A DNA stretch of 64,000 nt, from positions 1 through 64,000 of the forward strand of contig NZ_MAPV01000072.1 in NCBI RefSeq assembly GCF_001700505.1, written 5' to 3'. The notes beneath the pieces were generated by a model. It made no database searches and was not told the DNA's origin. It saw nothing but the letters and a program-made list of their open reading frames with translations. This DNA comes from Streptomyces mutomycini (lineage in GTDB: Bacteria > Actinomycetota > Actinomycetes > Streptomycetales > Streptomycetaceae). The position numbers and the translations under genes are program-made. Shown here in pieces: positions 24,920 to 38,287 of the stretch (positions are counted from its first letter, which is position 1; each line of letters opens with the position of its first letter).

Positions 24920-25855
24920 TCAGACCGCGACCGGCTCGGCGGCCGGCGCGTTCTCGGTCTCGGCGACGACGCCCGCGACCCGGCGGAGCTTCTTCATCGG
25001 GCCGAGCTCCGACTCGTAGACCTTCTTGACGCCGTCACCGAGGGAGGCCTCGATGGTGCGGATGTCGCGGACGAGGCGCGTCAGGCCCTGCGGCTCGACG
25101 GACGCCGCCTGGTCGGAGCCCCACATGGCGCGGTCCAGGGTGATGTGGCGCTCGACGAAAGCGGCGCCCAGGGCGACGGCGGCGAGGGTCGTCTGCAGGC
25201 CGGTCTCGTGACCGCTGTAGCCGATGGGGACGTTCGGGAACTCCTGCTGCAGGGTGTTGATGACCCGCAGGTTGAGCTCCTCGGCCTTCGCCGGGTACGT
25301 CGAGGTGGCGTGGCAGAGCAGGATGTTGTCGCTGCCGAGGACCTCGACCGCGTGGCGGATCTGCTTCGGCGTCGACATGCCGGTGGACAGGATGACGGTG
25401 CGGCCGGTGGCGCGCAGCGCGCGGAGCAGCTCGTCGTCCGTCAGGGAGGCGGAGGCGACCTTGTGCGCGGGCACGTCGAACTTCTCCAGGAAGGCGACGG
25501 CCTCGGTGTCCCACGGGGAGGCGAACCAGTCGATGCCGCGCTTGGCGCAGTGCTCGGCGATGGCGGTGTACTCGGCCTCGCCGAACTCGACGCGGTGGCG
25601 GTAGTCGATGTACGTCATCCGGCCCCAGGGGGTGTCGCGCTCGATGTCCCACTGGTCGCGCGGGGTGCAGATCTCCGGGGTGCGCTTCTGGAACTTGACG
25701 GCGTCGCAGCCGGCTTCGGCGGCCGCGTCGATCAGCGCGATGGCGTTGTCGAGGTCGCCGTTGTGGTTGATGCCGATCTCGCCGGTGACGTAGACGGGGT
25801 GGCCGGGGCCGGCGGTGCGGGTGCCGAACGTACGCAGGCGGGAGTTGTTGCTCAT
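24920..25855 (-). CDS. NeuB-family nonulosonate synthase without SAF domain
   Basis: Condenses phosphoenolpyruvate with a hexose (ManNAc-type, or mannose-6-phosphate for Kdn) to form a nine-carbon ulosonic acid. The TIM barrel is complete in 311 residues: VTGEIGINHNGDLDNAIALIDAA, AVKFQKRTPE, WFASPWDTEAV, HKVASASL, ILSTGM, IGYSGHETGL and VERHITLDRAMWGSDQAASVEP. It stops shortly after MKKLRRV, so the C-terminal antifreeze-like SAF domain of classical NeuB (about 345 residues) is missing. The same operon encodes a cytidylyltransferase fused to a phosphatase, which favours a Kdn-9-phosphate route. It is the third gene of its operon. Confidence 0.9.
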   Translation of the reverse strand: MSNNSRLRTFGTRTAGPGHPVYVTGEIGINHNGDLDNAIALIDAAAEAGCDAVKFQKRTPEICTPRDQWDIERDTPWGRMTYIDYRHRVEFGEAEYTAIAEHCAKRGIDWFASPWDTEAVAFLEKFDVPAHKVASASLTDDELLRALRATGRTVILSTGMSTPKQIRHAVEVLGSDNILLCHATSTYPAKAEELNLRVINTLQQEFPNVPIGYSGHETGLQTTLAAVALGAAFVERHITLDRAMWGSDQAASVEPQGLTRLVRDIRTIEASLGDGVKKVYESELGPMKKLRRVAGVVAETENAPAAEPVAV

Positions 25856-25867
25856 GGTGGTGCTTCC

Positions 25868-27115
25868 TTACTTGGTGGGGGCTACGGGAGCTACGGGGGT
25901 TTCGGGGTTGAGGGTGGGGCCCAGGAGCCAGGCCGCGATCTCGCGGATGGCGCCGGAGCCGCCGGGATTGGTGGTCACGGCGCGCGCGGCGGCGCGCACC
26001 GAGTCGTGGGCGTTCGCCACGGCGACGGGCCAGCCCGCCAGGCCGAAGCAGGCCAGGTCGTTGACGTCGTTGCCGACGTAGAGCACGCGGTCGGGAGCGA
26101 CGGACTGCTCCTCGCACCACTGCTTGAGTGCCAGGTCCTTGCGGTCGATGCCGTGCAGGACGGGGACCTGGAGTTTGCGGGCGCGGGCGGCCACGACCGG
26201 GTTCTGTTCCGTGGAGAGGATCAGGACCGGCAGGCCGGCCTTGCGCAGGGCGGCGACACCGAGGCCGTCGCCGCGGTGCACGGCGACGATCTCGCGGCCG
26301 TCGGAGTCGATGAGGACCCGGTCGTCGGTCTGCGTGCCGTCGAAGTCGAGGACGACGGCGTCGATGTCAGCCCGGGTCGGGAACGGCGAGGGGTCCAGGA
26401 GCGGCGCGAGGGCGCGGGCGCGGGCCAGGTCGTGCGGGTCGTCGATCTCCAGGACCCGGGCGGGGTCGGTGTGCACGAGCGCCGTGTGGCCGAAGAAGCG
26501 GTGGCGGTGGGTGCGGAAGCCCTCGACGTCCATGGCGTAGGCGGCGCCGGTCTCCAGGTAGTCCTGGGGCCGGTCCTGGCGGCGGGGGCGTACGGACTTG
26601 TCGTGGTTGACGCCGTAGGTGTCGTCCTCGACCGGGCTGCCGTCGCGCCACACGAAGCCGTGGAAGGGCGCCACCGTGACGGCGGTGTCGGCGCCGTCAC
26701 GGGCGACCGCGGCGGCGACGCCGTCGATGTCCTCACGGGTGATGAAGGGGCTCGTGCACTGGACCAGGAGCACCACGTCGGCCTTCCGGCCGTGCGACGT
26801 CGTCTCGTAGGTGTGCAGGGCGTGCAGGACCGCGTCCTCGCTGGTCGCCGTGTCACCGGCGATGGCGGCGGGGCGCTGCACGCAGTGCAGCCGGGCGTCC
26901 TCCCCCAGAGCCTCCCCCGCGGCCCTGGCCGCGGCGGCGATGGCCGGGTCGTCGGTGGTGACGACGACGTCCGTGACCTCGGGCGAGGCGAGGCAGGCGC
27001 GGACGGCCCGTGCGACGAGCGGGACGCCGCCGATCCGGGCGAGGTTCTTGGCGGGCACGCCCTTGGATCCGCCGCGGGCGGGGATCACGGCGAGCACGGT
27101 GGGGCGCGGGGTCAT
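25868..27115 (-). CDS. CMP-nonulosonate synthetase fused to KdsC-like HAD phosphatase
   Basis: A 415-residue bifunctional protein. Residues 1-230 form the acylneuraminate cytidylyltransferase domain (VIPARGGSKGVPAKNL, LLVQCTSPFITREDI). Residues 250-400 form a HAD hydrolase of the KdsC type, with nucleophile DFDG at 257-260, LSTEQN and VGNDVNDLACF. A single chain can therefore dephosphorylate the ulosonate 9-phosphate and activate it to CMP. This matches what a Kdn pathway (mannose-6-phosphate plus PEP) needs and supports a Kdn product. The ATG at 27115 follows CAGGAG by 6 nt; the much longer frame is rejected. It sits between the DUF6716-like gene and the NeuB gene. Confidence 0.9.
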   Translation of the reverse strand: MTPRPTVLAVIPARGGSKGVPAKNLARIGGVPLVARAVRACLASPEVTDVVVTTDDPAIAAAARAAGEALGEDARLHCVQRPAAIAGDTATSEDAVLHALHTYETTSHGRKADVVLLVQCTSPFITREDIDGVAAAVARDGADTAVTVAPFHGFVWRDGSPVEDDTYGVNHDKSVRPRRQDRPQDYLETGAAYAMDVEGFRTHRHRFFGHTALVHTDPARVLEIDDPHDLARARALAPLLDPSPFPTRADIDAVVLDFDGTQTDDRVLIDSDGREIVAVHRGDGLGVAALRKAGLPVLILSTEQNPVVAARARKLQVPVLHGIDRKDLALKQWCEEQSVAPDRVLYVGNDVNDLACFGLAGWPVAVANAHDSVRAAARAVTTNPGGSGAIREIAAWLLGPTLNPETPVAPVAPTK

Positions 27116-27135
27116 GGTTGCTCCTGAATCGGTGG

Positions 27136-28521
27136 TCACAGCTCGCCCATCCGCCGGATCACGGGAGCGATCCGCTGGACGCCGTGGCGGTAGGCGCCGC
27201 GCGCCGCGTTGCGCACGGTCTCGCGGACCGCGCCCCGGACCCGGCCCGTCTCCTGGGCCGTGACGGCGCCCGGCAGCGGGTGGCCGTCGGGGCCCAGGTG
27301 GTAGCGGGCGAGGATGCCGGGGAGGTATCCGGGCGCGGTGGCGGGCGTGTAGTAGGGGGCGAGGCGGGGAAGCGGCCCGGCGGCCAGCAGTGCCGCGACC
27401 CGCACGCGGGCGGTGTCGTAGGCGGCGCCGTACGTGCCGTCGGCTGCGACGCCCTGGCCGGCGAGCCACTCCGTGTCGGGCTCCGGGCGGCGGCCGCCGT
27501 CGAGGTGGTCCCAGGACGTGATCAGTCCCGACCCGATGAAGTGGTGGTTGCCGAGCGCCTCGCGGACGCCGAGGTCGGAGAGGATCGCGGTCGGGATCCG
27601 CCGGTGCAGGGACTCCAGCGCGGCGGTCGAGGACACGGTGACCAGCAGGTCGGTGCGGTCCAGGACCTCGCCCATGTGCCCGTAGACGAGGCTGAAGTTG
27701 GGCGGCAGACCGCCGGGGATGCGCTCCGCGAGGCGCTGGTAGGGCAGTTCCTCGATGTGCGTGGTGTGTTCACCCGGCTTGGAGCGCAGCTTCAGCAGGA
27801 CCTCGCGGGCGGGGTGCAGCCGGGCGTGCTCGACGAGCCGGCGCAGCAGGTACATGCGGTCGGCGCGGGATGCCGGTACGGAGGGCTGGGCGGCGAACAC
27901 GACGGTGTCGCGCCCCTCCTCCGCACGGTGCGGCTCCCCGCCGAGGAACGGCAGTGCGGCCTCGGTGACGGACGAGGCGTCGGCGCCGACCCCTTCGTAC
28001 ACCGCGCGGAAACGGGCGCCGTCGTGGCGGGAGTTGGCGAGGACGACGTCCGCGCCGTGGCGCAGCAGGAGTCCGTCGGCGAGCTTCTCGTAGACGACCC
28101 CGACATAGCCCGTGACGACGACGGGCCTGCGGGGCAGGTCCAGTGCGGCCAGGCCGTGCAGCATCGCCTGGACGGCGCCGCCGACGAGGGCGAGGACCAC
28201 CACGTCGTACGCCTCGTCCCGCACCGTGTGCAGGAACTCGACGGCCGTCACCTCGCGCACCCGGCCGGCGTCGACCCCGACCTCGCCCACTTCGGCGAGC
28301 TGGCGGGGCGTCGGTGTGGCCCGGCCGCGCAGCAGCAGACCGCTGATCTCGACGGGTCGCTCCGCCGCGCCTGCCTCCGGGGACCCGGCGAGGCGGCGCG
28401 CGGTGAGCGCGCCCCATTTCCACCGGGTGTCGGAGTCGGCGAGCACGGCTATGCGGAGCGCCGCACGGTCGGCTGCTGGGGTGACGGCCGGAGCGGCCGT
28501 TTCATCGGTACGAGGGGGCAC
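27136..28521 (-). CDS. Putative glycosyltransferase (DUF6716-like)
   Basis: A 461-residue protein, first gene of the nonulosonate operon. A GT-B-like fold is suggested by AALRIAVLADSDTRWKWGAL, VVVTGYVGVVYEK, VLLKLRSKPGEHTTH and TDLLVTVSSTAALESLHRRIPTAIL. The last segment matches the sugar-nucleotide loop of CDP-glycerol- and polysialyl-type transferases. It likely adds a residue to the wall polymer. The start GTG lies 6 nt after a -10 TAGCTT, so the message is probably leaderless. The promoter shares the GTTnAC-49-TAGC element of the cluster. It is divergent from the GT2 gene at 28723. Confidence 0.75.
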   Translation of the reverse strand: MPPRTDETAAPAVTPAADRAALRIAVLADSDTRWKWGALTARRLAGSPEAGAAERPVEISGLLLRGRATPTPRQLAEVGEVGVDAGRVREVTAVEFLHTVRDEAYDVVVLALVGGAVQAMLHGLAALDLPRRPVVVTGYVGVVYEKLADGLLLRHGADVVLANSRHDGARFRAVYEGVGADASSVTEAALPFLGGEPHRAEEGRDTVVFAAQPSVPASRADRMYLLRRLVEHARLHPAREVLLKLRSKPGEHTTHIEELPYQRLAERIPGGLPPNFSLVYGHMGEVLDRTDLLVTVSSTAALESLHRRIPTAILSDLGVREALGNHHFIGSGLITSWDHLDGGRRPEPDTEWLAGQGVAADGTYGAAYDTARVRVAALLAAGPLPRLAPYYTPATAPGYLPGILARYHLGPDGHPLPGAVTAQETGRVRGAVRETVRNAARGAYRHGVQRIAPVIRRMGEL

Positions 28522-28644: not shown

Positions 28645-28721
28645 GTTCACTTTCCTGCCGCGCGTCGTTCACTTTCCGTACGGACAGGGGTCAGAGTGAA
28701 GGCCGGGGCCGCCCCTAGCGT
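28645..28721 (+). promoter_or_regulatory. GT2 operon promoter with duplicated GTTCACTTTCC
   Basis: GTTCACTTTCC occurs at 28645-28655 and again, identically, at 28667-28677, a 22-bp (2 x 11) spacing. The second copy begins 49 nt upstream of a -10 TAGCGT (28716-28721). The units match the Streptomyces PHO-box pattern GTTCAYYYR. No TTGACA-like -35 is present. Confidence 0.6.
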
Positions 28722-28722
28722 G

Positions 28723-29712
28723 ATGCGGGTGGTTAAGCTCTCCGTCATCGTGCCGTTCTACAACGTCCAGGCATACGCCCCAGACACCCTGAGAAGCCTG
28801 CGGGCCAATACCCGCGAGGACTTCGAATTCATCCTCGTCGACGACTGTTCGACCGACGGGACCGCGGATCTCCTGCGCCGGGCCGAGCACGGCATCGAGG
28901 GGGTGGTCCTGCGCAGACACGAGCACAACGCCGGGCTGGCCACGGCCCGCAACACCGGTCTGGACGCGGCCCGTGGCGAGTACATCGCCTTCCTGGACGG
29001 CGACGACTGGCTCGCACCCGGCCACTGCACCCGTCTGCTCGCACGGGCCGAGGCCCTGGGCTGCGCTTTTGTACGCACGGACCACGTGCAGGTCACCGGC
29101 ACCTCCCGTACGGTGCGCCGCGTCCCGCACGGCCTGCGGGACGTGGTGGGCGACCCCCGGGAAGCGATCCTGCCCGCGGGCCGGACGACGTCGGTGGACT
29201 ACGCGTTCGCCTGGGCGGGGCTCTACCACCGGAGCCTGCTGGACCGGGGGCTGCTGCATTTCACCGACGGGCTGCGCACAGCGGAGGACCGGCCGTGGAT
29301 CTGGCGCCTGCACCGGGAAGCGGAATCCTTCGCGGTCCTGGGAACGCTGGGCCATTTCTACCGGCGGGGCGTCGCGTCCTCTCTCACCCAGATCGGCGAC
29401 GAACGACAACTGGATTTCATCAAGGCCTATGACCAGGTGCTCTCGGACACCGCGGCGGACCGTGACGCGGACACACTGATGCCGAAAGCGGTGCGGACGT
29501 ACTGCGCCGTCATCGCCCATCACATCGGATCCACCGGGAAATTCGAGCCGTCCGTGGCCCGCACCCTGAAATCGCTCGCCGCGGCGGCGCTCACCCGCAT
29601 GCCCCAGCGCGTGCTCGACGACGTCCTGGACTCCATGGACACCGAACGGGCGACCGTGCTGCGCAGGCTGCGCCGCCGCTCCGCCACCACTGAGGGAGCG
29701 ACTGCCGCGTGA
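28723..29712 (+). CDS. GT2-family glycosyltransferase (copy 1)
   Basis: A 329-residue inverting GT-A glycosyltransferase. The N-terminal catalytic domain shows KLSVIVPFYNV, ILVDDCSTDGT, NAGLATARNTGLDAARGEY and the metal-binding DGDDW. A middle region reads FVRTDHVQVTGTSR, with AEDRPWIWRLH as the probable catalytic-base segment. It acts on the inner membrane face to extend the wall polymer. The ATG at 28723 or GTG at 28729 is the likely start; a GTG at 28696 would sit upstream of the -10 box. It is a paralogue of 37322-38287 and, like it, is followed by a polysialyltransferase-like gene, overlapping here by 4 bp. Confidence 0.85.
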   Translation: MRVVKLSVIVPFYNVQAYAPDTLRSLRANTREDFEFILVDDCSTDGTADLLRRAEHGIEGVVLRRHEHNAGLATARNTGLDAARGEYIAFLDGDDWLAPGHCTRLLARAEALGCAFVRTDHVQVTGTSRTVRRVPHGLRDVVGDPREAILPAGRTTSVDYAFAWAGLYHRSLLDRGLLHFTDGLRTAEDRPWIWRLHREAESFAVLGTLGHFYRRGVASSLTQIGDERQLDFIKAYDQVLSDTAADRDADTLMPKAVRTYCAVIAHHIGSTGKFEPSVARTLKSLAAAALTRMPQRVLDDVLDSMDTERATVLRRLRRRSATTEGATAA

Positions 29713-31043
29713 CCGTCCAGATCTTCGTCGCCTCCGGCCTCCACGGCACGGCCCTGCTCGCCGCGGCACTCGACTCCGGCTGCTTCGGGGCCTCCGGCCG
29801 CCGCATCCTGCTGCTCTGCGAGACCGCGGAGGCCCCCGAGGCGGCGGCCCCGGTCGACGCGGGGCCCGGGTTCGGCCGGCTTCGCACCCGCTTCGACGAG
29901 GTGCGCTCGTGGAACGACGCCGTCTTCCCCCTGCACCCGGGCACCTGGACGCCCCGCGCCGACGACGTGCCCCTGTGGGAACGCCACCTGCGACGTGCGT
30001 GGGACCTCGGGGACGACCAGGTCGAACTGGTCGTGGAATCACCGCATACCGCGCCCGCCCTGGCGGTCGCCCAGATCTTCACCGGCGGGCCGGTGACCGT
30101 GTACACGGACGGTCTCACCGGCTACGGCCCGACCGGTGGCAAGATCCCGCCGCTGATCGGGACCCGCGTCCGGCAGCTGCTCCACCCCGACCTGCTCCCC
30201 GGCCTGGAGCCGCTGCTGCTGGGCGAGTTCGACGCCGTACCCCGGCCGCTGCCCGCCGGGGCCCTGCGGCAGGTCTTCGGTGAACTGGCGGACTGCGCAC
30301 CGGATGTCGACGCGCCGCAGGGGGCCGCGGTCCTGCTCCTCCCCGAGCCGGGGCTGCTCCCGGCCGCGGAGGAGGCGGAGCTCCACCTGCGGATGATCCG
30401 CGGCACGGCTGCGCTCGGCCACACCCACCTCGTCGTCCGGCCCCACCCCGGCGGGGGGCCCGTGCCGTCCGTCCCGGCCCTGCGGGCGGAGGCCGGAAGG
30501 CTCGGCGTCGGGCTGACGGTGCCGGCCCCGGGCGACCAGGTCCCGGCCGAGGTGCTCTACGAGCGGCTGCGCCCCGCCCTCGTCGTCGGCTCCTGCTCGA
30601 CGGCGCTGCTCACCGCGGCCTCGTCCTACGGTCTGCCGGTGGCCAGGACCGGGACCGGCGCCCTGCTGGAGCGCCTCACCCCGTACGAGAACCCGGCGAG
30701 GATCCCGGTCACCATCGTCGACGCCCTGCTGCCCGACCTGGCCGAGCCCGACGCGGTGCAGGGCCGGTCGCCCCTGACCGAGGCCTCGGTGGCCGAGGCT
30801 CTCGGCGGACTGCTGCCCGCGGTGGCCTTCGCCATGCAGCCGCGCGTCCGCCCGGACCTGCGCCCGGCCGCCGAGCGCTACCTCTCCACCCGTCTGACCA
30901 CCAGGACCTGGCGCTACTTCAAGCGCCGCCGCCTCGGCTCGCTGGCCCTCCCCGGCGTCGTCCCCGCCCGTCTCGCCTTCGTACGGCGGAACGCCACACT
31001 GCGCCGGCTGGCCCGTCGGGCCCGCGCCCTCAAGCGCCGCTGA
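29709..31043 (+). CDS. Polysialyltransferase-like glycosyltransferase (copy 1)
   Basis: A 444-residue GT-B-type protein similar to the alpha-2,8-polysialyltransferase family. It has TVQIFVASGLHGTALLAAAL at the N-terminus, GPVTVYTDGLTGYGP in the middle, VVRPHPGGG for the acceptor-half His-Pro motif, and VVGSCSTALLTAASSYG for the CMP-binding Ser/Thr loop. Family knowledge assigns these to transfer of CMP-activated ulosonic acids. It starts on GTG overlapping the GT2 stop. Its closest relative here is 35972-37318, with the same ending (YFKRRRL followed by a basic tail). It converges on the acyltransferase gene with a 10-bp gap. Confidence 0.8.
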   Translation: MTVQIFVASGLHGTALLAAALDSGCFGASGRRILLLCETAEAPEAAAPVDAGPGFGRLRTRFDEVRSWNDAVFPLHPGTWTPRADDVPLWERHLRRAWDLGDDQVELVVESPHTAPALAVAQIFTGGPVTVYTDGLTGYGPTGGKIPPLIGTRVRQLLHPDLLPGLEPLLLGEFDAVPRPLPAGALRQVFGELADCAPDVDAPQGAAVLLLPEPGLLPAAEEAELHLRMIRGTAALGHTHLVVRPHPGGGPVPSVPALRAEAGRLGVGLTVPAPGDQVPAEVLYERLRPALVVGSCSTALLTAASSYGLPVARTGTGALLERLTPYENPARIPVTIVDALLPDLAEPDAVQGRSPLTEASVAEALGGLLPAVAFAMQPRVRPDLRPAAERYLSTRLTTRTWRYFKRRRLGSLALPGVVPARLAFVRRNATLRRLARRARALKRR

Positions 31044-31053
31044 CCACCGGGTC

Positions 31054-32154
31054 TCAGCCCAGGAGGCGGGTCAGACCGAGGCGGGTCCACAGAAGCGCCG
31101 CGGCGAAGGAGAGAGCCGTCGTGGCGGCGGTGACGGCGAGAGCCAGTGCCGCCGCCACCGGCAGGGTGAGGTCGGCGTCGACCAGTACGTCGGTGAGGAC
31201 GCCCAGCACCAGCACATGGATCATGTACGCACCGAACGAGGCTCCGGCCAGGCGTGTCAGGGCCGGGCGAAGCCGCTCCGGGACGCGCAGGCGGTGCAGG
31301 GAGAGCAGCACGCCGGCGCTGAACAGGGCCACCAGGACGCTCGCGTAGGGAATCGCGTAGTGCACCTCGTGCTGGTAGGCGATGACCGCGGCGAGGCACG
31401 CGCAGGCCGGGAGCAGCCACCACAGGCTCCGCCGCCCGAACGTGCCGGCGGGAAGCGCGAGGACCAGGGCGCCCAGGACCGCGTAGATCAGCTGGTACGG
31501 GCCGAAGCCCCACCCGAAGCGCGGCAGGTCGAGGTCCGTCACCCGGGCCAGATCGCCGGACAGCGTCGGAGCGGCCCCCAGCACGAGGAGGGCGACGCCG
31601 AGGCCCCAGGGCCGCTTGCCCGACTTCACCAGGGCGGCGAAGGCCAGGAGCAGGATCACGGGGATGTAGGCGTACAGGTACCAGAGGTGGTAGGCCGGGC
31701 GGACCGAGGCGAACACCGCGTCGAGCGCCAGCTCGCCGGCCGGTGCGTCGTTGGTGCCGCGCAGCCTGCCCCATGCCACGTAGAGCACGGTCCACACGGC
31801 GAGCGGCACCAGGATCCGTACGATCCGCTGCCACAGCTGCCGGCCGTCCCGGACCGGGGCACCCACGAGGACGACCCATCCGGCGATCGCGAAGAACAGC
31901 GGTACGGCGAAGCGGCCCGCGGAGTCCGCGACCAGGCCCGCCCAGTAGGTGCCGGGACCGTTCGCGGCCTCGCGGCCCGCCGTGTTCACGAAGGCCGACC
32001 CCGTGTGGCAGAGGATCACGCCGACCGAGCAGAGCAGCCGGATCAGATCGATGTCGTACCGGTGTTCGCGGTGCGGGCGGGGTTCGGGGGCGGGCTGCGG
32101 GGACTGCGCGGAGGCAGGCGGGCCGGCCTGGGAGACAGAGGAAGGCATGGTCAT
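31054..32154 (-). CDS. Acyltransferase family 3 membrane protein
   Basis: A 366-residue membrane O-acyltransferase with about 10 helices, usually modifying extracellular or lipid-linked sugars. RYDIDLIRLLCSVGVILCHTGSAF carries the conserved R...H pair of the family (His in CHTG). FFAIAGWVVL follows as the family's FF(x)SGF-like stretch. The N-terminal 30 residues are Pro/Gln-rich. ATG at 32154 or 32148 is likely. In the cluster it probably O-acetylates the wall polymer. Its promoter contains GTTCACC twice and a -10 TAGCCT, so it may be transcribed independently of the operon ending at 32205. Confidence 0.85.
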   Translation of the reverse strand: MTMPSSVSQAGPPASAQSPQPAPEPRPHREHRYDIDLIRLLCSVGVILCHTGSAFVNTAGREAANGPGTYWAGLVADSAGRFAVPLFFAIAGWVVLVGAPVRDGRQLWQRIVRILVPLAVWTVLYVAWGRLRGTNDAPAGELALDAVFASVRPAYHLWYLYAYIPVILLLAFAALVKSGKRPWGLGVALLVLGAAPTLSGDLARVTDLDLPRFGWGFGPYQLIYAVLGALVLALPAGTFGRRSLWWLLPACACLAAVIAYQHEVHYAIPYASVLVALFSAGVLLSLHRLRVPERLRPALTRLAGASFGAYMIHVLVLGVLTDVLVDADLTLPVAAALALAVTAATTALSFAAALLWTRLGLTRLLG

Positions 32155-32204: not shown

Positions 32205-34622
32205 TCACTTCGTCCGGGTGTCCGGCAGGTGAAGGCCGCGTGCCGGCTCGGCGGTCCGCGGTCCGGGGACACGCGGTCCCCCGGTGAACGGGTCCGGCAG
32301 CCCGAAGAGGTCCCGGAGTTCGGCGAGGTTGGCGCGGGTGACCGACCACAGGTGCTCCTGCCTGCCGTGCACGTCGGCGACGGCTGCCCCGTGGTCGTCC
32401 AGGACGGCCGCCGCGCGCTCGGCGAGGCGGGCGCCCAGCGACCGGTCGTGGACGGAGACGCCCCAGTCGGGGCGGTCAATGTCGGAGAGGAAGTAGGCGA
32501 GTTTCGGGTGCGAGACCAGACTGATGATCGGCGTGCCGCAGCCGAAGGGGATCATTCCCGCGTGCCCGCGCATGCCGATCACCAGGCGCGTACGCCGGTA
32601 GAGCTCGCGGATGCGGTCGTTGGAGAAGAGGTACAGCGGCTCCACCGGGAGGGCTGTGCCGTGCTCCCGGCGCAGGTCGCGGACGAACTTCTCGTCGGCC
32701 GGCATGTGCGCCGCGTAGCGGACCTCGGCACGCTCGCCGATGGCGCGTACGGCGGCGGCCGTCTCGGCCAGGAAGTGGCCGTAGTCGTGGCCGAAGCGCA
32801 GACCGGCACGGTCGTAGGCGCAGTTGATCAGCACGGTGTCGTCCCGGCGCACACCGTCGTCCGGGCCGTTGCCGGGGCCGCCGTCCAGGCCGGGGTCGAG
32901 GTGGCGGGCCACGGTCGTGGGGCAGGGCTGGTAGCGCACCCGGTCCCGCAGCTCCGCCGGCAGGAGTTCCCTGACCCGTTCCACGGAACCCTGGTTGCGC
33001 AGCCCGAAGAAGGCCGACTTCCCGACCAGGGCGCGCAGGCTGGCGGCGAAGCGCTCACGGCGGTAGCGCTGGCCGTCGAAGACGTTGTAGCCGACCGCGA
33101 AGACGGCGAGCGGCGCGGTGATCCGGGCCAGGACGTCGTCAGGGATGTTCCACTGCCAGCCGCTGTTGCTGTTGGGCGCGGTGTCCGGGAGGAAGAGCCC
33201 GCCACCGCCGACGACGATCCCGCGCCGGGCGTTCAGCTCCTCCAGGCCGGGCTCGTCGACCAGCCGGTGCACGGACCGCTCGTGCCAGCGGGCGGGTCCG
33301 GTGTCGGGGCCGAAGCACATCCGTACGGCTTCGGGGAGCACCTTGTCGCCCGCGTTCTCCTGTCCGTCGGCGAACAGGGCGACATGGGCGAGCTGTTCGT
33401 CCGGCGGTGCCGTGGCGGTCGCCGTACCGGCCGGAGCGACCGGGCGTGTACGGACGTACCAGGCGTGGCAGTTGCCGTCGGCGGGGTCGGCGTCGAGACC
33501 TTCCCGCGCGTAGGCGTGCGCGTCCTCGTCGCGGCCCAGCAGCCAGGCGAGCCGGGCGAGCTGGCCGTAGGCGCGGGCGGCGAAGTCCGGTGACACGGTG
33601 GCCAGGAGGAGGTGCGCCTCGGCCTCCTCGTGGCGGGACAGGGCCATCAGGCTGATGCCCAGCGTCTCGTGGCAGCGCGGCAGGTCGGGCCGGTCCGCCA
33701 CGGCGGCGGTGAGCAGGGCTACGGCCTCGTCGTAGCGGCCCTGCTGCCGGTGCACCTCGGCGACCTGGCGGACCAGGTCCACCGGCGCACGCCCTCCTTC
33801 GAGGAGCGGCAGGGCGCAGTGCAGGAGGAGTTCGGGGTGCTTGGGGCCCGGCAGGGCGCAGTAGGCGGCGCGGAAGGCCGCCTCGTCCAGCTCGTACCGC
33901 TCGCGCGCCTCGCGCGCCGGGGCGGAGGGGGTGAGCCCCTCGCCGAAGTGCAGGACGACGGTGCTGTCGGGAACCGGCATGTCGTCGTACAGCCGCTCGA
34001 CCGGGAAGTCGTAGTGGGAGGCGAGCGGTTCGAGGATCCCGGCCTCCGTCAGCGCACGGTCCAGCGTGTCCTCGCCGCCGCCGGCCGGCAGGTCAGGCGC
34101 GGTGTCCTTCACGTCCTGGCGCTGGATCACCAGCAGTCCGTCGTGCCGCACGGTCCGTCCGCCGCCGGTCCCCGGCTGCGGCACGGCGGCCACTCCCGCA
34201 CGCAGCGTCAGCAGCGGCAGGAGGGAGCCGAGTACGACCATGCCGGGGCCGAGGGCGACGACGGTGTCGTAACCGGTCTCCCGGAAGACGTCGAGGCGGC
34301 TCTCCGCGGTACGCGGCACGAGGCGCGGGTGCAGCCGGTGTGCGGCCTCGAACGCGGAGTCGGGCAGCCCGGGGTGCAGGACGAGGAAGTCCTCGCAGAC
34401 GGCGGGGTTGGTCAGGGCGAGACTGCGCAGCAGCACCAGCAGGCCCGGCATCCGGTCCTCGTCGGCGTACGCGGCGAAGGCGATCCTGCGCTTGCCGGTG
34501 ACGGCGCGCCGGTCGTCGGCGTCGGGCCGGGCGGGCGCGGGGGACGGCCCCGCCCCGGCGGGCTCGGTGCCGTCGGCGGGCTCGGTGCGTCTGCCGTCGG
34601 CGGGCTCGGCGGGGCTGTTCAT
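32205..34622 (-). CDS. Three-domain protein: GT-A-like, TPR, polysaccharide pyruvyltransferase
   Basis: An 805-residue fusion. After a repetitive acidic/Pro lead (1-44), residues 45-280 resemble a GT8-type domain (RIAFAAYADEDRMPGLLVLLRSL). The position of the metal-binding DxD is changed to ALGPG, so it may not be catalytic. Residues about 300-410 look like TPR repeats (QQGRYDEAVALLTAAV). Residues about 425-775 are a polysaccharide pyruvyltransferase, with GDKVLPEAVR, VVGGGGLFLPD, and MRGHAGMIPFGCGTPIISL. The last domain adds a ketal pyruvate from PEP to a sugar. It is the last gene of the operon starting at 38287, and its ATG overlaps the previous stop. Confidence 0.8.
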   Translation of the reverse strand: MNSPAEPADGRRTEPADGTEPAGAGPSPAPARPDADDRRAVTGKRRIAFAAYADEDRMPGLLVLLRSLALTNPAVCEDFLVLHPGLPDSAFEAAHRLHPRLVPRTAESRLDVFRETGYDTVVALGPGMVVLGSLLPLLTLRAGVAAVPQPGTGGGRTVRHDGLLVIQRQDVKDTAPDLPAGGGEDTLDRALTEAGILEPLASHYDFPVERLYDDMPVPDSTVVLHFGEGLTPSAPAREARERYELDEAAFRAAYCALPGPKHPELLLHCALPLLEGGRAPVDLVRQVAEVHRQQGRYDEAVALLTAAVADRPDLPRCHETLGISLMALSRHEEAEAHLLLATVSPDFAARAYGQLARLAWLLGRDEDAHAYAREGLDADPADGNCHAWYVRTRPVAPAGTATATAPPDEQLAHVALFADGQENAGDKVLPEAVRMCFGPDTGPARWHERSVHRLVDEPGLEELNARRGIVVGGGGLFLPDTAPNSNSGWQWNIPDDVLARITAPLAVFAVGYNVFDGQRYRRERFAASLRALVGKSAFFGLRNQGSVERVRELLPAELRDRVRYQPCPTTVARHLDPGLDGGPGNGPDDGVRRDDTVLINCAYDRAGLRFGHDYGHFLAETAAAVRAIGERAEVRYAAHMPADEKFVRDLRREHGTALPVEPLYLFSNDRIRELYRRTRLVIGMRGHAGMIPFGCGTPIISLVSHPKLAYFLSDIDRPDWGVSVHDRSLGARLAERAAAVLDDHGAAVADVHGRQEHLWSVTRANLAELRDLFGLPDPFTGGPRVPGPRTAEPARGLHLPDTRTK

Positions 34623-35914
34623 CGCAGCGTGGTCCTCATCTCGGTCTCGTCCTCGTGTGTCGCGCGGGCCGTGACCCACTCCCGCTCCCGCGGGAGCAGC
34701 TGCCCCGGGAGCCCGAAGCCGATGAGGTCCAGGCGGTCGGCGGCGTCCAGGAAGTCCAGCAGCCGGAGCACGGTGAACGCGGTGCCGGTCCGCGGGCCCC
34801 AGCCGTCCTCGCCGAGCAGCGCCGGATCGTCCAGGGGGTGCCGCAGCGAGGCGTCGCCGACGCGGTCCTGCGCGCCCGCGACCAGTCGGGCCCGCAGCGA
34901 GCGGCGCCAGTGCGGCAGCGGGTCGCCGAAGACCAGCCGGGTGCCGGCCCGGCGGTTCCAGACCGGGCCCGTCCACGGGGTGTCCCCCCGCAGCGTGACC
35001 GCGTGCAGATCGGTGCGCGGGCCGGCCGCCGGGAGGTTGTCGCAGCGCACCACCAGGTCGTATCCGTCGATCAGCTTGCCGAGCGCACTGCCCGGGACCC
35101 GCTCCTCGTCGGCGATGCGCGGTGCGCCGGCGACCAGGCAGACGGAGCGTCCGGCGACCAGGCGGCGCAGTGCGGTGACCCCGAGCGGTTCCGCGCCGCC
35201 GAGCAGGGGGTCGGCCATCCTGTCCCGGTCCAGCAGCCGGCGGTGGGCGGCGTACAGGGTGGTGAGGCGGCGGACGCCCGGGTCGGCCAGGCCGCCGCCC
35301 TCGGCGGTGTGCCGGCGTACGACCTCGGCGAAGGCGGTACGGGCCTGCCCGGCGGGGGCGTTGTGCAGCGCCCGCAGACGGGTTCCGTCCGCCTCGGGCA
35401 GCAGCCCGGCGGCCTCGTGCAGGCAGGCTTCGAGGTCCTTCAGGGTGGCGATCCGGCGCACGATGTCCTCGGCCGCCGCCGGGTTCTGCTGAAGCGCCAG
35501 ATGACGTTCATAGGCCTCCACCGCCTCGTCGCGCCGGCCCAGCGCGTCCAGCGCGCTTCCGCGCAGCCGCCACGCACCCTTGGACCTGGAGCGCAGCCCG
35601 GTGGCCTCGACCGCGATGTCCAGGGCGAGACGGGTCTCCGTCTCCCCTCCGGCTTCCAGGGCACGCTGCCCGGTGCGGAGCAGGGCGTCGAACAGCTCGT
35701 CCCCGTCGGTCCCGCAGGCCGTGGTGAGGCCGCCGATGGCGGAGACCAGCCGGGTCTGCCGGGCGTCGCTCATGGGACCGCTCGCGGCGAGGCCCGCGAG
35801 GTAGTCGCCACAGAGGCGCAGGGCGGCCGTGGGTTCCGGCCTCGCCGTACCGCCACCGCCCTGCCCGGTTCTCGCCCGCACTGCTCTGAGCAGCCCGGTG
35901 AAGGTCTGGCCCAT
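34619..35914 (-). CDS. TPR-containing GT29-like sialyltransferase
   Basis: A 431-residue protein. Residues 1-250 are helical with TPR-like repeats (ALDALGRRDEAVEAYERHLAL). Residues 258-431 match the sialylmotifs of eukaryotic-type GT29 enzymes. L-motif: VCLVAGAPRI...LGKLIDGYDLVVRCDNLP...TDLHAVTLR. S-motif: GPRTGTAF...ADRLDLIGF. VS-motif at the very end: HEDETE (His420-x4-Glu425), which carries the catalytic His in GT29. It should transfer a CMP-ulosonate to the polymer. GT29 is typical of animals, and bacterial versions are little studied. The start ATG at 35914 is 57 bp from the previous gene. The stop overlaps the next ATG. Confidence 0.72.
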   Translation of the reverse strand: MGQTFTGLLRAVRARTGQGGGGTARPEPTAALRLCGDYLAGLAASGPMSDARQTRLVSAIGGLTTACGTDGDELFDALLRTGQRALEAGGETETRLALDIAVEATGLRSRSKGAWRLRGSALDALGRRDEAVEAYERHLALQQNPAAAEDIVRRIATLKDLEACLHEAAGLLPEADGTRLRALHNAPAGQARTAFAEVVRRHTAEGGGLADPGVRRLTTLYAAHRRLLDRDRMADPLLGGAEPLGVTALRRLVAGRSVCLVAGAPRIADEERVPGSALGKLIDGYDLVVRCDNLPAAGPRTDLHAVTLRGDTPWTGPVWNRRAGTRLVFGDPLPHWRRSLRARLVAGAQDRVGDASLRHPLDDPALLGEDGWGPRTGTAFTVLRLLDFLDAADRLDLIGFGLPGQLLPREREWVTARATHEDETEMRTTLR

Positions 35915-35971: not shown

Positions 35972-37318
35972 TCAGAGGCCCAGGCTGCTGCGGGTGCGCC
36001 GTACGGTGCGGCGCAGCCGGATCGCCGCTCCTCGCGGACCACCGCCGGGCAGGGTGAGCTTCTGCAGGCGACGCCGCTTGAAGTAGTACTGCGTGCTGGT
36101 GTCGAGGTGGTCCCGCAGCCAGGCCTCGGCCTCGGAGCGCAGCGTGGGGTGGAGCCCGGACTGCATGCAGTAGCCGACAGTCCGGACCAGCGGCGCGAGG
36201 GTCTCCGGTGCCTCGGACGGCAGTTCCGGAAGGGGCTCGCCGCTCTGCTCGTCCAGGTCGGGCACGAGGTGGTCGACGATCGTCAGCGGGATGCGGTTGC
36301 TGTTCTCGTACGGGGTGATGCGGTCCAGGACGAGACGGGTGCCGACCCGGGCGACGGGGATGCCGTAGTACGCGGCGGCGGTGAACATCGCGGTCGAGAA
36401 GCAGCCGACGACGAGCGTGGGCGCGCACCGCTCGTAGAGGGTCTCGGCGAGCAGCGGGCCGTCCAGCGTGGTCAGCCGCACCCCCAGCGCGGCGGCCGCG
36501 TCGTCCAGTGCCCGGGAGTAGCGGGCCGGTGCGGTGGGGTGGGGCTTGAAGAGGACGGAGGTGTGGCCCGCCCGCGCCGCGCCGCTCAGCATGCGCAGGT
36601 GCAGGTCCTCCTCCTCCTCGGCCGTGAGGATGTTCAGGGCCGCGAGGTACTGGCCCAGGAGCACCGCCGTGGGTGCCTCGGCCTCCGCCTCCGCGAGCCG
36701 GCGGTCACCGGCCGCGGCCCCCGCGATCTCGGCGAGGACCTTACGGAAGGCGTCGTTCGGTACGAGCTCGGGCTCGACGCCGGACTCGGCGAGGAGGAGC
36801 GGGCGCAGTCCCGGTACGAGATCGAGGTGGAGCACCCGCTGGATGCGGCAGGCGATGGACCTCGGCACCTTGTTGCGGGTGGGGCCGTAGCTCATCAGGC
36901 CGTCCGCGTAGACGTGCACGGCGCTCTCGGAGAAGATCGCGGCCAGCGCGCGGGCCGGGTTGACCTGGATGGATTCGACGGCGAGGTCCACCGGGCCGAC
37001 GGGGTCGATGCCCCAGGCGAGACGGAAGGCGCGCTGCCAGAGCTCGGTCTCCTCGGCGCGCGGGCCCCAGCCGCTCGGGTGGTGCGGGCTGATGGCGTCG
37101 TTCCAGTCGACGACGGAGTCGAAGCGGGCCGCGATGTCGCCGTAGCCCCACATCTCCTCCAGCCGCAGGGCGGTCTCGGGGATCGCAGCGTTGTTGGAGA
37201 CGAGCAGGACGCGGTGGCTGTCCTGTCCGGGTCCGAACTGGCCGGCGTCCAGCGCCGCCGCGAGCGTGGCCGCCCCGTACAGGGTCGACACCTGGAAGAT
37301 CTGGGTGCGCGTGGGCAT
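35972..37318 (-). CDS. Polysialyltransferase-like glycosyltransferase (copy 2)
   Basis: A 448-residue paralogue of 29709-31043. Shared landmarks are TQIFQVSTLYGAATLAAAL at the N-terminus, AVHVYADGLMSYGPTRNKVP, LFKPHPTAPARY, VVGCFSTAMFTAAAYYGIPVARVGT and ITPYENSNRIPLTIVDHLVPDL. It is probably an ulosonate transferase of GT-B fold acting with the GT2 protein encoded 3 bp upstream. No membrane segment is visible; the basic C-terminus (KRRRLQKL, IRLRRTVRRTR) may bind membranes. The gene follows the same order (GT2 then polysialyltransferase-like) as the copy at 28723-31043. Confidence 0.8.
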   Translation of the reverse strand: MPTRTQIFQVSTLYGAATLAAALDAGQFGPGQDSHRVLLVSNNAAIPETALRLEEMWGYGDIAARFDSVVDWNDAISPHHPSGWGPRAEETELWQRAFRLAWGIDPVGPVDLAVESIQVNPARALAAIFSESAVHVYADGLMSYGPTRNKVPRSIACRIQRVLHLDLVPGLRPLLLAESGVEPELVPNDAFRKVLAEIAGAAAGDRRLAEAEAEAPTAVLLGQYLAALNILTAEEEEDLHLRMLSGAARAGHTSVLFKPHPTAPARYSRALDDAAAALGVRLTTLDGPLLAETLYERCAPTLVVGCFSTAMFTAAAYYGIPVARVGTRLVLDRITPYENSNRIPLTIVDHLVPDLDEQSGEPLPELPSEAPETLAPLVRTVGYCMQSGLHPTLRSEAEAWLRDHLDTSTQYYFKRRRLQKLTLPGGGPRGAAIRLRRTVRRTRSSLGL

Positions 37319-37321
37319 GGG

Positions 37322-38287
37322 TCAGGCGGCCTTCTGCTTGTCACGCAGGCGGTTGAGCAGCGTGCTGCGCCTGGTGTCCATCATCGTCAGGGTCTGGTCG
37401 AGCACCTGCTGCGGCATCCGGTGCAGCGCGGCCGCGGACTCGTGGCGCAGGCGCCGGAAGGTGGCGGGCTCGTAGGCGTCCGCCTTCTCGTTGTGGAAGG
37501 CGATCATCGCGCAGTAGGTGCGGACCGCCTTGGGGAGGAGGAGCTCCGCGTCCGGGTGCTCGCGGATCTCGTCGAGGAGCGTGTCGTAGGAGGGGAAGAA
37601 GTCCAGCTGGCGGGAGTCCTTGATCTGCGTCAGGGACGTCGTGACACCGCGCCGGTAGAAGATGCCGTAGAGGTTCAGCGCCGCGTAGGTGCGGGCCCGC
37701 AGGTGCAGCTGCCAGATCCACAGCCGGTCCTCGGCGGTGCGCAGCCGTGCGTTGAAACGGTGGCCGCCGTCCTCGAAGAGCCGCCGGTGGTAGACGCCCG
37801 CCCACACGAAGGGGTAGTCGACCATCGTCTCCCATTCGGGAGCCGCGATTCCCTCGCGCGGGTCCATGACCGTGTCACGGAGGCGGGCGGGCGCGCGGCG
37901 CACGACCCGGCTGGTGCCCGTGACCTGGACGTGGTCGGTGCGGGCGAAGTCGCAGTCCAGGTCGGCGGCGGCGTGCAGGAGCCGGCCCAGGTGACCGGGG
38001 GCGTACCAGTCGTCGCCGTCGAGGAAGGTGACGAAATCGCCCCGGGCCGCGTCGATGCCGCTGTTGCGGGCCTCCGCGATGCCCACGTTCTTCCCGTGCC
38101 GGATGACCTCGGCGTGCGGAAGTCTGTCGGCCCAGCGGTCCACGACGTCCGGCGTCTCGTCCGTGGAACAGTCGTCGACCAGCAGGAACTCGATGTCCGG
38201 GCCCGCATTACGGGCAAGACTGCCCAGCGTCGTGTCGGCGAAGGGGCCGACATTGTGGAACGGAACGACAACGGACAGTTTCGGCAC
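37322..38287 (-). CDS. GT2-family glycosyltransferase (copy 2)
   Basis: A 321-residue GT-A enzyme, first gene of the operon 38287-32205. KLSVVVPFHNV, LLVDDCSTDET, NVGIAEARNSGIDAARGDF and DGDDWY define the nucleotide-sugar site. The segments FARTDHVQVTGTSR and TAEDRLWIWQLH are nearly identical to copy 1 at 28723, and GVTTSLTQIKDSRQLDF to its GVASSLTQIGDERQLDF. Duplication of the two-gene module is therefore clear. It starts on GTG at 38287. The promoter at 38319-38395 shares the element found upstream of copy 1. Confidence 0.88.
   Translation of the reverse strand: MPKLSVVVPFHNVGPFADTTLGSLARNAGPDIEFLLVDDCSTDETPDVVDRWADRLPHAEVIRHGKNVGIAEARNSGIDAARGDFVTFLDGDDWYAPGHLGRLLHAAADLDCDFARTDHVQVTGTSRVVRRAPARLRDTVMDPREGIAAPEWETMVDYPFVWAGVYHRRLFEDGGHRFNARLRTAEDRLWIWQLHLRARTYAALNLYGIFYRRGVTTSLTQIKDSRQLDFFPSYDTLLDEIREHPDAELLLPKAVRTYCAMIAFHNEKADAYEPATFRRLRHESAAALHRMPQQVLDQTLTMMDTRRSTLLNRLRDKQKAA

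Follow-up and report, generated by a model that had tools for sequence, protein, structure and literature searches.

Apparent loss of the VS histidine in a TPR-fused descendant of GT29 sialyltransferases from Streptomyces mutomycini

Does the 431-amino-acid protein encoded on the minus strand at positions 34619-35914 of a Streptomyces mutomycini contig still transfer a sugar, or is it the remodelled descendant of an enzyme that once did? The open reading frame (ORF) lies in the window, by which we mean the whole stretch of 64,000 nucleotides that was analysed (positions 1 to 64,000 of NZ_MAPV01000072.1, assembly GCF_001700505.1). The initial annotation of this DNA described the product as a bacterial GT29 sialyltransferase with all sialylmotifs, fused to tetratricopeptide repeats (TPR) and moving 3-deoxy-D-glycero-D-galacto-non-2-ulosonic acid (Kdn) or sialic acid from cytidine monophosphate (CMP) onto the wall polymer. 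The comparisons presented here bear out the descent from GT29, and we consider the chances to be slightly better than even that the window protein is a catalytically disabled, TPR-fused descendant of that family, kept as a non-catalytic partner in a nonulosonic-acid wall-polymer pathway, probably one for Kdn.

The ORF of 431 amino acids and every string quoted in the initial annotation are present. The ORF reads on the minus strand, and the plus-strand frame at 34619-35914 is a different, shadow translation. The protein is laid out as follows, the terms long form and short form being defined below.

34619..35914, minus strand: the whole ORF, a short-form, GT29-derived TPR protein of 431 amino acids
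35300..35827, minus strand: helical N-terminal region with TPR, residues 30-205 (TPR Pfam matches, PDB matches and model)
34622..35227, minus strand: GT29-like domain, residues 230-431 (profile and alignment)
35039..35140, minus strand: L-motif region, from CLVAGAP (residues 259-265) to YDLVVRCD (285-292) (alignment)
34715..34798, minus strand: S-motif-like region GPRTGTAF...LDLIGF, residues 373-400 (alignment)
34673..34693, minus strand: PREREWV, residues 408-414, with E410 in the VS Glu column (alignment)
34640..34657, minus strand: HEDETE, residues 420-425, in the C-terminal tail (alignment; alignment A3, described below, places it differently)

Within this layout, the L-motif-like string singled out earlier, LGKLIDGYDLVVRCDNLP, corresponds to residues 278-295, and GPRTGTAF and LDLIGF to residues 373-380 and 395-400, respectively. 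The TPR fusion is also supported: TPR Pfam matches fall at residues 85-145, all under their cut-offs, and the best PDB matches of the N-terminal region are designed TPR proteins.

Relatives of the window protein were found in 92 of the 391 genomes of the order, and 88 loci were read, one per genome; left out were the window's own genome, G215 (where the gene is split over two contigs), and G271 and G015 (weak matches). These loci were assigned to a long or a short form by the pattern H-x4-E-K-x-W-V near the C-terminus, giving 44 long forms and 42 short forms, to which the window adds one more short form. Two loci are not counted among these 42 short forms: L220, discussed below, and L236, where a gene resembling the long form is cut short and runs into what seems to be the final part of the pyruvyltransferase-like gene. 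Typical ends are LDLIGFDFYESGAYRVQEAMKLAITSVHEYTSEKAWVMQRAQSVTDMRISLR for the long form and, as in the window, LDLIGFGLPGQLLPREREWVTARATHEDETEMRTTLR for the short form; long forms share about 32-46% identity with the window protein across the matched part, and the protein of Streptomyces atroolivaceus NRRL ISP-5137 is 86% identical to it. A second sample comprised 65 further genomes with matches, of which 57 were read, giving 60 loci (three in G854 and two in G947); the eight unread genomes all score like long forms. In G854 the short form stands at three places (L272-L274) and in G947 at two (L282-L283), some of which may be assembly duplicates.

The long form reveals the ancestry of the protein most clearly. 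PF00777, the Pfam family of GT29, recognises all 25 long-form domains tested at E<=1, with a best value of 2.2e-7 and with 28 bits, above the cut-off, for the first of them. No other Pfam family is matched by all 25, and of 45 short-form domains PF00777 matches 16 at that threshold (best 8e-6). For the window protein itself the profile check proposed earlier came out negative, with 11.3 bits (E 0.22) for the whole protein, in a match covering the L-like stretch only, and 12.5 bits (E 0.095) for the GT29-like domain alone, against a gathering cut-off of 23 bits. When the long-form profile was compared with the PDB, all seven sequences at E<=10 were GT29 enzymes (best 0.0012, ST6Gal1). In addition, a scan of viral contigs yielded 70 marine loci of GT29-like proteins (L079-L148), with which profile comparison aligns both the long and the short forms; the profile of 45 short forms aligns with this set across the L-like and S-like stretches at E 1e-10. 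Judged by these profiles, the L-like and S-like stretches exceed chance, and the window protein is a descendant of a GT29-type sialyltransferase. At E<=0.001, PF00777 found no match in the window's genome or in any of 14 control genomes, and among 396 genomes of the phylum it matched only G016, a long-form genome, and G698, so that this search must be considered insensitive for such proteins. Bacterial GT29 sequences as such are already known, the accessible part of Petit et al. (2018; PMC5811610) describing 23 with four sialylmotifs.

Descent alone does not make a working enzyme, and the residues on which GT29 catalysis depends divide the two forms. The VS His is the base histidine of the GT29 mechanism. 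Its presence in 44 of 44 long forms is true by definition, since the forms were assigned by H-x4-E-K-x-W-V itself; the informative point is that the remaining features split along the same division. All 42 short forms have a gap at the position of the VS His, and all 42 retain the VS Glu. The Asn of the RxN site, present in 43 of 44 long forms (one row was unread by the regular expression), has become Asp in 42 of 42 short forms. The N-S pair of the L motif is found in 44 of 44 long forms; among the short forms N occurs in 15/42 and S in 1/42. HKH follows the L motif in all 78 rows that carry the VS His and in none of the 69 that lack it; no weight is placed on the Fisher value, which disregards relatedness. 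Where the long form reads CLIANSG (and variants) and YDLVVRFN, the window reads CLVAGAP and YDLVVRCD, placing G263 and A264 in the position of N-S and D292 in that of the RxN Asn. The S-motif stretch itself aligns, P-T-T/S-G-F-N in the long form being mostly x-x-T-A-F/Y-T in the short. Motif III (H-Y-Y-x) is missing from the window protein; a literal HYY is missing from the long form as well, and hence does not separate the two. A TPWxGPxW-like insertion after the L motif was also seen in many short forms and not in others (alignment of L001-L030).

The missing histidine can be traced to a deletion. Long forms carry a genuine H-x4-E (VHEYTSEK or a variant), and the spacing from LIGF to the VS Glu is 26 residues in the long form L054 and 9 in the window, a net loss of 17, with the stretch bearing the VS His deleted just before PREREWV. 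MAFFT joins the ends through EKAWVMERA/REREWVTARA and the MRISLR/MRTTLR terminus; hhalign, comparing 45 short with 25 long domains (E 2e-60), places the deletion alike, leaving a gap over the VS His and setting window E410 on the VS Glu. In the viral GT29-like proteins, of which 40 distinct ones were read, H-x4-E follows DLIGFDFF in 40 of 40, so the loss is the derived state; likewise, another actinomycete, G698 (L077), bears a textbook HYYD and RHEVERE within a longer open frame, and together these relatives make the motif-bearing state the older one. Nearly all of the viral proteins read GNS in the L motif, and L148 has GNA. As to what such changes do to an enzyme, the accessible part of a study of human ST3Gal1 (PMC6884586) reports that an Ala in place of the motif III His, the motif III Tyr or the VS His abolishes activity, that N147S and N170A lower it strongly, and that 25-80% is left in the variants W301F, E302Q and E321Q, the last of which alters the VS Glu. 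On this comparison the window protein would no longer transfer sugar.

The initial annotation had instead read the terminal HEDETE as the VS motif, in which case the protein would be an active GT29 sialyltransferase that retained the motif or re-evolved it after the deletion. We regard this as highly improbable. A tail H-x4-E occurs in the window and in 5 of the 42 other short forms, and alignment A3, a sparse one that joins the window protein and six close relatives to seven viral proteins and omits the long forms, sets H420/E425 on the VS column. However, MAFFT and hhalign, which include the long form, align HEDETE with the C-terminal tail of the relatives, and this placement is preferred over that of A3 because the long form is much closer. 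Moreover, 37 of the 42 short forms are without a tail H-x4-E, the donor-site residues are changed and the window falls under the PF00777 cut-off; that a VS motif arose anew within the small subclade of the window is conceivable but improbable. Hence what remains of the proposal of a bacterial GT29 enzyme is its descent and not catalysis through His420 and Glu425, the relatives with a true H-x4-E showing that stretch to be deleted in the window's clade; nor does the description "all sialylmotifs" survive, as motif III and a VS His by descent are missing, Asp replaces the RxN Asn and HEDETE belongs to the tail.

The gene immediately downstream has changed as well. It overlaps the 431-amino-acid ORF and contains the following.

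32205..34622, minus strand: next gene, 805 amino acids, with a GT8-like domain, TPR and a polysaccharide pyruvyltransferase-like domain (ATGA overlap with the 431-amino-acid ORF)
33858..34493, minus strand: degenerate GT8-like domain of that gene (alignment with long-form counterparts)
32511..33284, minus strand: PS_pyruv_trans domain of that gene

The motifs of GT8 enzymes are DxD and H-x-x-G-x-x-K-P-W. In the long-form genome G325 the N-terminal part of the corresponding gene, at locus L161, is a clear GT8 domain (PF01501, E 1.2e-20), with TPR and the pyruvyltransferase-like domain behind it, whereas the window's gene has no PF01501 match at E<=1, reads GPG (34242-34250) in place of the long-form DTD and HFGEGLTP (33927-33950) in place of the HFTGRHKPW of L161. 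Across the loci, the DxD is DTD in 44 of 44 long loci and is found in none of the 38 short rows with letters at that position (2 of 40 are gapped), and H[F/Y]xGxxKPW occurs in 44 of 44 long forms and 0 of 43 others, the window and L220 included. The second sample repeats the pattern: all 33 readable loci with a VS His have the DxD, and none of the 20 readable loci lacking that His does (7 of 60 were unreadable). Pooled over both samples, the DxD is present at each of the 77 readable loci that have the VS His and at none of the 58 short ones. L220 retains the long-form stretch and branches with the long forms (fork support 83/64 and 84/94), but it carries Arg instead of the VS His and RFS instead of RFN, and the neighbouring gene has DPR; by this reading it would represent an independent second co-loss of both sites.

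The short form itself is one clade in the tree of the GT29 domain (support 99/96), which carried a long-branch warning and includes the columns of the trait; it is again one clade without those columns and in the tree of the neighbour's pyruvyltransferase-like domain (SH-aLRT, the Shimodaira-Hasegawa-like approximate likelihood ratio test, 100 and 99), these repeats using a short search with SH-aLRT as the sole measure of support. We tentatively propose, with less confidence than an even chance would warrant, that two adjacent TPR glycosyltransferases, one of GT29 and one of GT8 ancestry and joined by translational coupling, lost their active sites together on at least two occasions. In one large clade of Streptomyces the GT29 member would then have become a conserved pseudo-sialyltransferase, acting as an assembly factor, though not as a catalyst, for a Kdn-type wall polymer.

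It could be argued that the window protein is merely a remnant, retained through translational coupling to the pyruvyltransferase-like gene. The start of that gene is read within the ATGA stop overlap in the window, the stop reads ATGA at 42 of 44 long loci and at 40 of the 44 others, and the GT8-like domain of the neighbour is visibly relaxed: its median ratio of nonsynonymous to synonymous substitution rates (dN/dS, here by simple pairwise Nei-Gojobori counting between related pairs) is 0.512 in the short form (138 pairs) against 0.259 in the long (247). The GT29-like domain behaves differently, with a median of 0.275 in the short form (72 pairs) against 0.306 in the long (174 pairs), so that, of these two domains, only the GT8-like one shows relaxed selection in the short clade. 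This, together with the persistence of the GT29-like domain throughout one well-supported clade, makes a coupling remnant improbable. In the rest of the neighbour, the pyruvyltransferase-like domain stands at 0.204 (short) against 0.193 (long) and the TPR at 0.215 against 0.367.

The same figures speak for a transferase that is active but re-purposed, with another donor or another base taken up after the loss of the VS His, for example Asp292, and a different sugar moved. In addition to a dN/dS no higher than that of the long form, such an enzyme would account for the RxN-site Asp of all 42 short forms and for frames that, among the matches listed, are almost always without internal stops (only G246 and G015 have them). 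On the other hand, the base His lay in the deleted stretch, the tail supplies no consistent replacement (18 of 42 short forms have no His at all in the last 22 residues), and the neighbour's GT8 site was lost in the same genomes. On balance, we consider a re-purposed transferase rather unlikely, and prefer a protein retained for a non-catalytic role.

The genes around the pair give this role its probable context.

24920..25855, minus strand: NeuB-family synthase (PF03102, E 2e-82)
25868..27469, minus strand: NeuA-like cytidylyltransferase plus HAD hydrolase ORF
27136..28521, minus strand: DUF6716 putative glycosyltransferase
28696..29712, plus strand: GT2 gene a
29709..31043, plus strand: POLYST-family gene a (PF07388, E 1e-10)
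31054..32154, minus strand: acyltransferase (PF01757)
35972..37318, minus strand: POLYST-family gene b, of an extra GT2 and POLYST pair (PF07388, E 3e-28)
37322..38287, minus strand: GT2 gene b, partner of POLYST b

The initial annotation had correctly placed the protein in a cluster with GT2 and polysialyltransferase-like (POLYST) genes, and the NeuA-like and NeuB genes are also there. The true start of the NeuA-like/HAD ORF is probably further in, because the ORF overlaps the DUF6716 gene; the fusion of a CMP-sugar synthetase-like domain with one resembling HAD phosphatases would be in keeping with a Kdn-9-phosphate step. A teichulosonic acid of galactose (Gal) and Kdn is reported for streptomycete walls in the accessible part of one study (PMC11481543), and the window cluster may make a Gal/Kdn teichulosonic acid of this kind.

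The number of POLYST genes follows the two forms in part. Where NeuA and NeuB are in view, 28 of 28 short loci have two GT2 and POLYST pairs, and in this main setting, viewed over 20 kb, 41 of 41 long forms have one POLYST. Genome-wide counts, for which two pieces in G246 and in G075 were each taken as one locus, gave one POLYST in 11 of 11 long-form genomes tested and two or more in 15 of 20 short-form genomes. In an alternative setting, three long and six short forms each have one GT2 and POLYST pair; there (L165, L223, L227, L158, L193-L196 and L200) the acyltransferase adjoins, and the 20-kb view holds no NeuA or NeuB. That a second POLYST replaced the GT29 enzyme was rejected in its strict form and stands as a tendency only, 5 of 20 short-form genomes having one POLYST, and the second pair therefore accompanies the loss without explaining it.

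Besides the placement of HEDETE in A3 and the conceivable re-evolution of its motif, several points weigh against a non-catalytic role. Those 5 of 20 short-form genomes, and the genome of L220, have a single POLYST. The co-loss counts as two evolutionary events, one in the short clade and one in L220, not as dozens. The dN/dS counting was simple; unrelaxed selection fits a changed but active enzyme equally, and an invariant Asp at RxN in 42 short forms looks like new constraint, not decay. Furthermore, the N-terminal TPR part is a little less constrained in the short form (0.441, 73 pairs) than in the long (0.367, 174 pairs). Finally, AlphaFold2, given the window protein and six close relatives, models the N-terminal half as all-helical with a predicted local distance difference test score (pLDDT) mostly of 70-90, but blocks of the GT29-like half reach only about 33-57; a domain model built with the viral relatives has a mean pLDDT of 52 and a predicted template modelling score of 0.52. 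With this low-confidence domain model a GT29 chain ranks first in Foldseek (E 0.02), and of the first 12 VIA rows 10 are GT29 chains, whose Z of about 5 is shared by unrelated folds; since the domain models are of low confidence, these fold searches are a hint, and not a test, of the GT29 fold, a GT-A-like variant.

If the non-catalytic role is nonetheless correct, the ancestor would have been a TPR-fused, GT29-type CMP-sugar transferase, of which the short clade deleted the VS His stretch and changed the donor-site residues while the coupled GT8-like neighbour lost its DxD in the same genomes. The window protein might then serve by binding proteins or polymer, through its TPR and an emptied nucleotide-sugar fold, and may act together with the pyruvyltransferase-like neighbour, whereas CMP-Kdn would be used by the POLYST-family proteins, two in the window genome and one in each long-form genome tested. 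Bacteria would then offer a natural pseudo-sialyltransferase descended from GT29, and the sister form that bears the motifs and occupies this locus in other Streptomyces could serve directly as the control. The paired active sites would suggest GT29-type and GT8-type steps on one branch of the wall polymer, and the Kdn and hexose transferases of streptomycete teichulosonic acids could be assigned gene by gene, in a testable way. The case also cautions that a motif as short as H-x4-E can be over-read in a tail. A literature search, thin on subscription journals, found no description of long-form Streptomyces TPR-GT29 proteins or of this protein pair.

Compared with known systems, the window protein resembles ST3Gal1, ST6Gal1 and ST8SiaIII (PF00777) in the L and S motif regions and the VS Glu, but differs from these GT29 enzymes in having no motif III or VS His by descent, a replaced donor-site Asn/Ser, a TPR region in front and no Pfam-level match. 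Its closest counterpart, the long-form TPR-GT29 protein, shares with it mostly the gene position, the N-terminal region, the next gene and the ATGA, but has kept ANS, RxN, HKH and H-x4-E next to a gene that retains the GT8 DxD. With the bacterial GT29 sequences of Petit et al. (2018; PMC5811610), as far as the accessible part describes them, it has in common that they are bacterial members of the GT29 line. The marine viral GT29-like proteins have the L and S motif regions and DLIGF in common with it, but keep H-x4-E, and none of those aligned in A3, nor of 28 in alignment A4, has a TPR region. The PF07388 polysialyltransferases, two members of which stand in the window cluster, are a family other than GT29, with a different fold.

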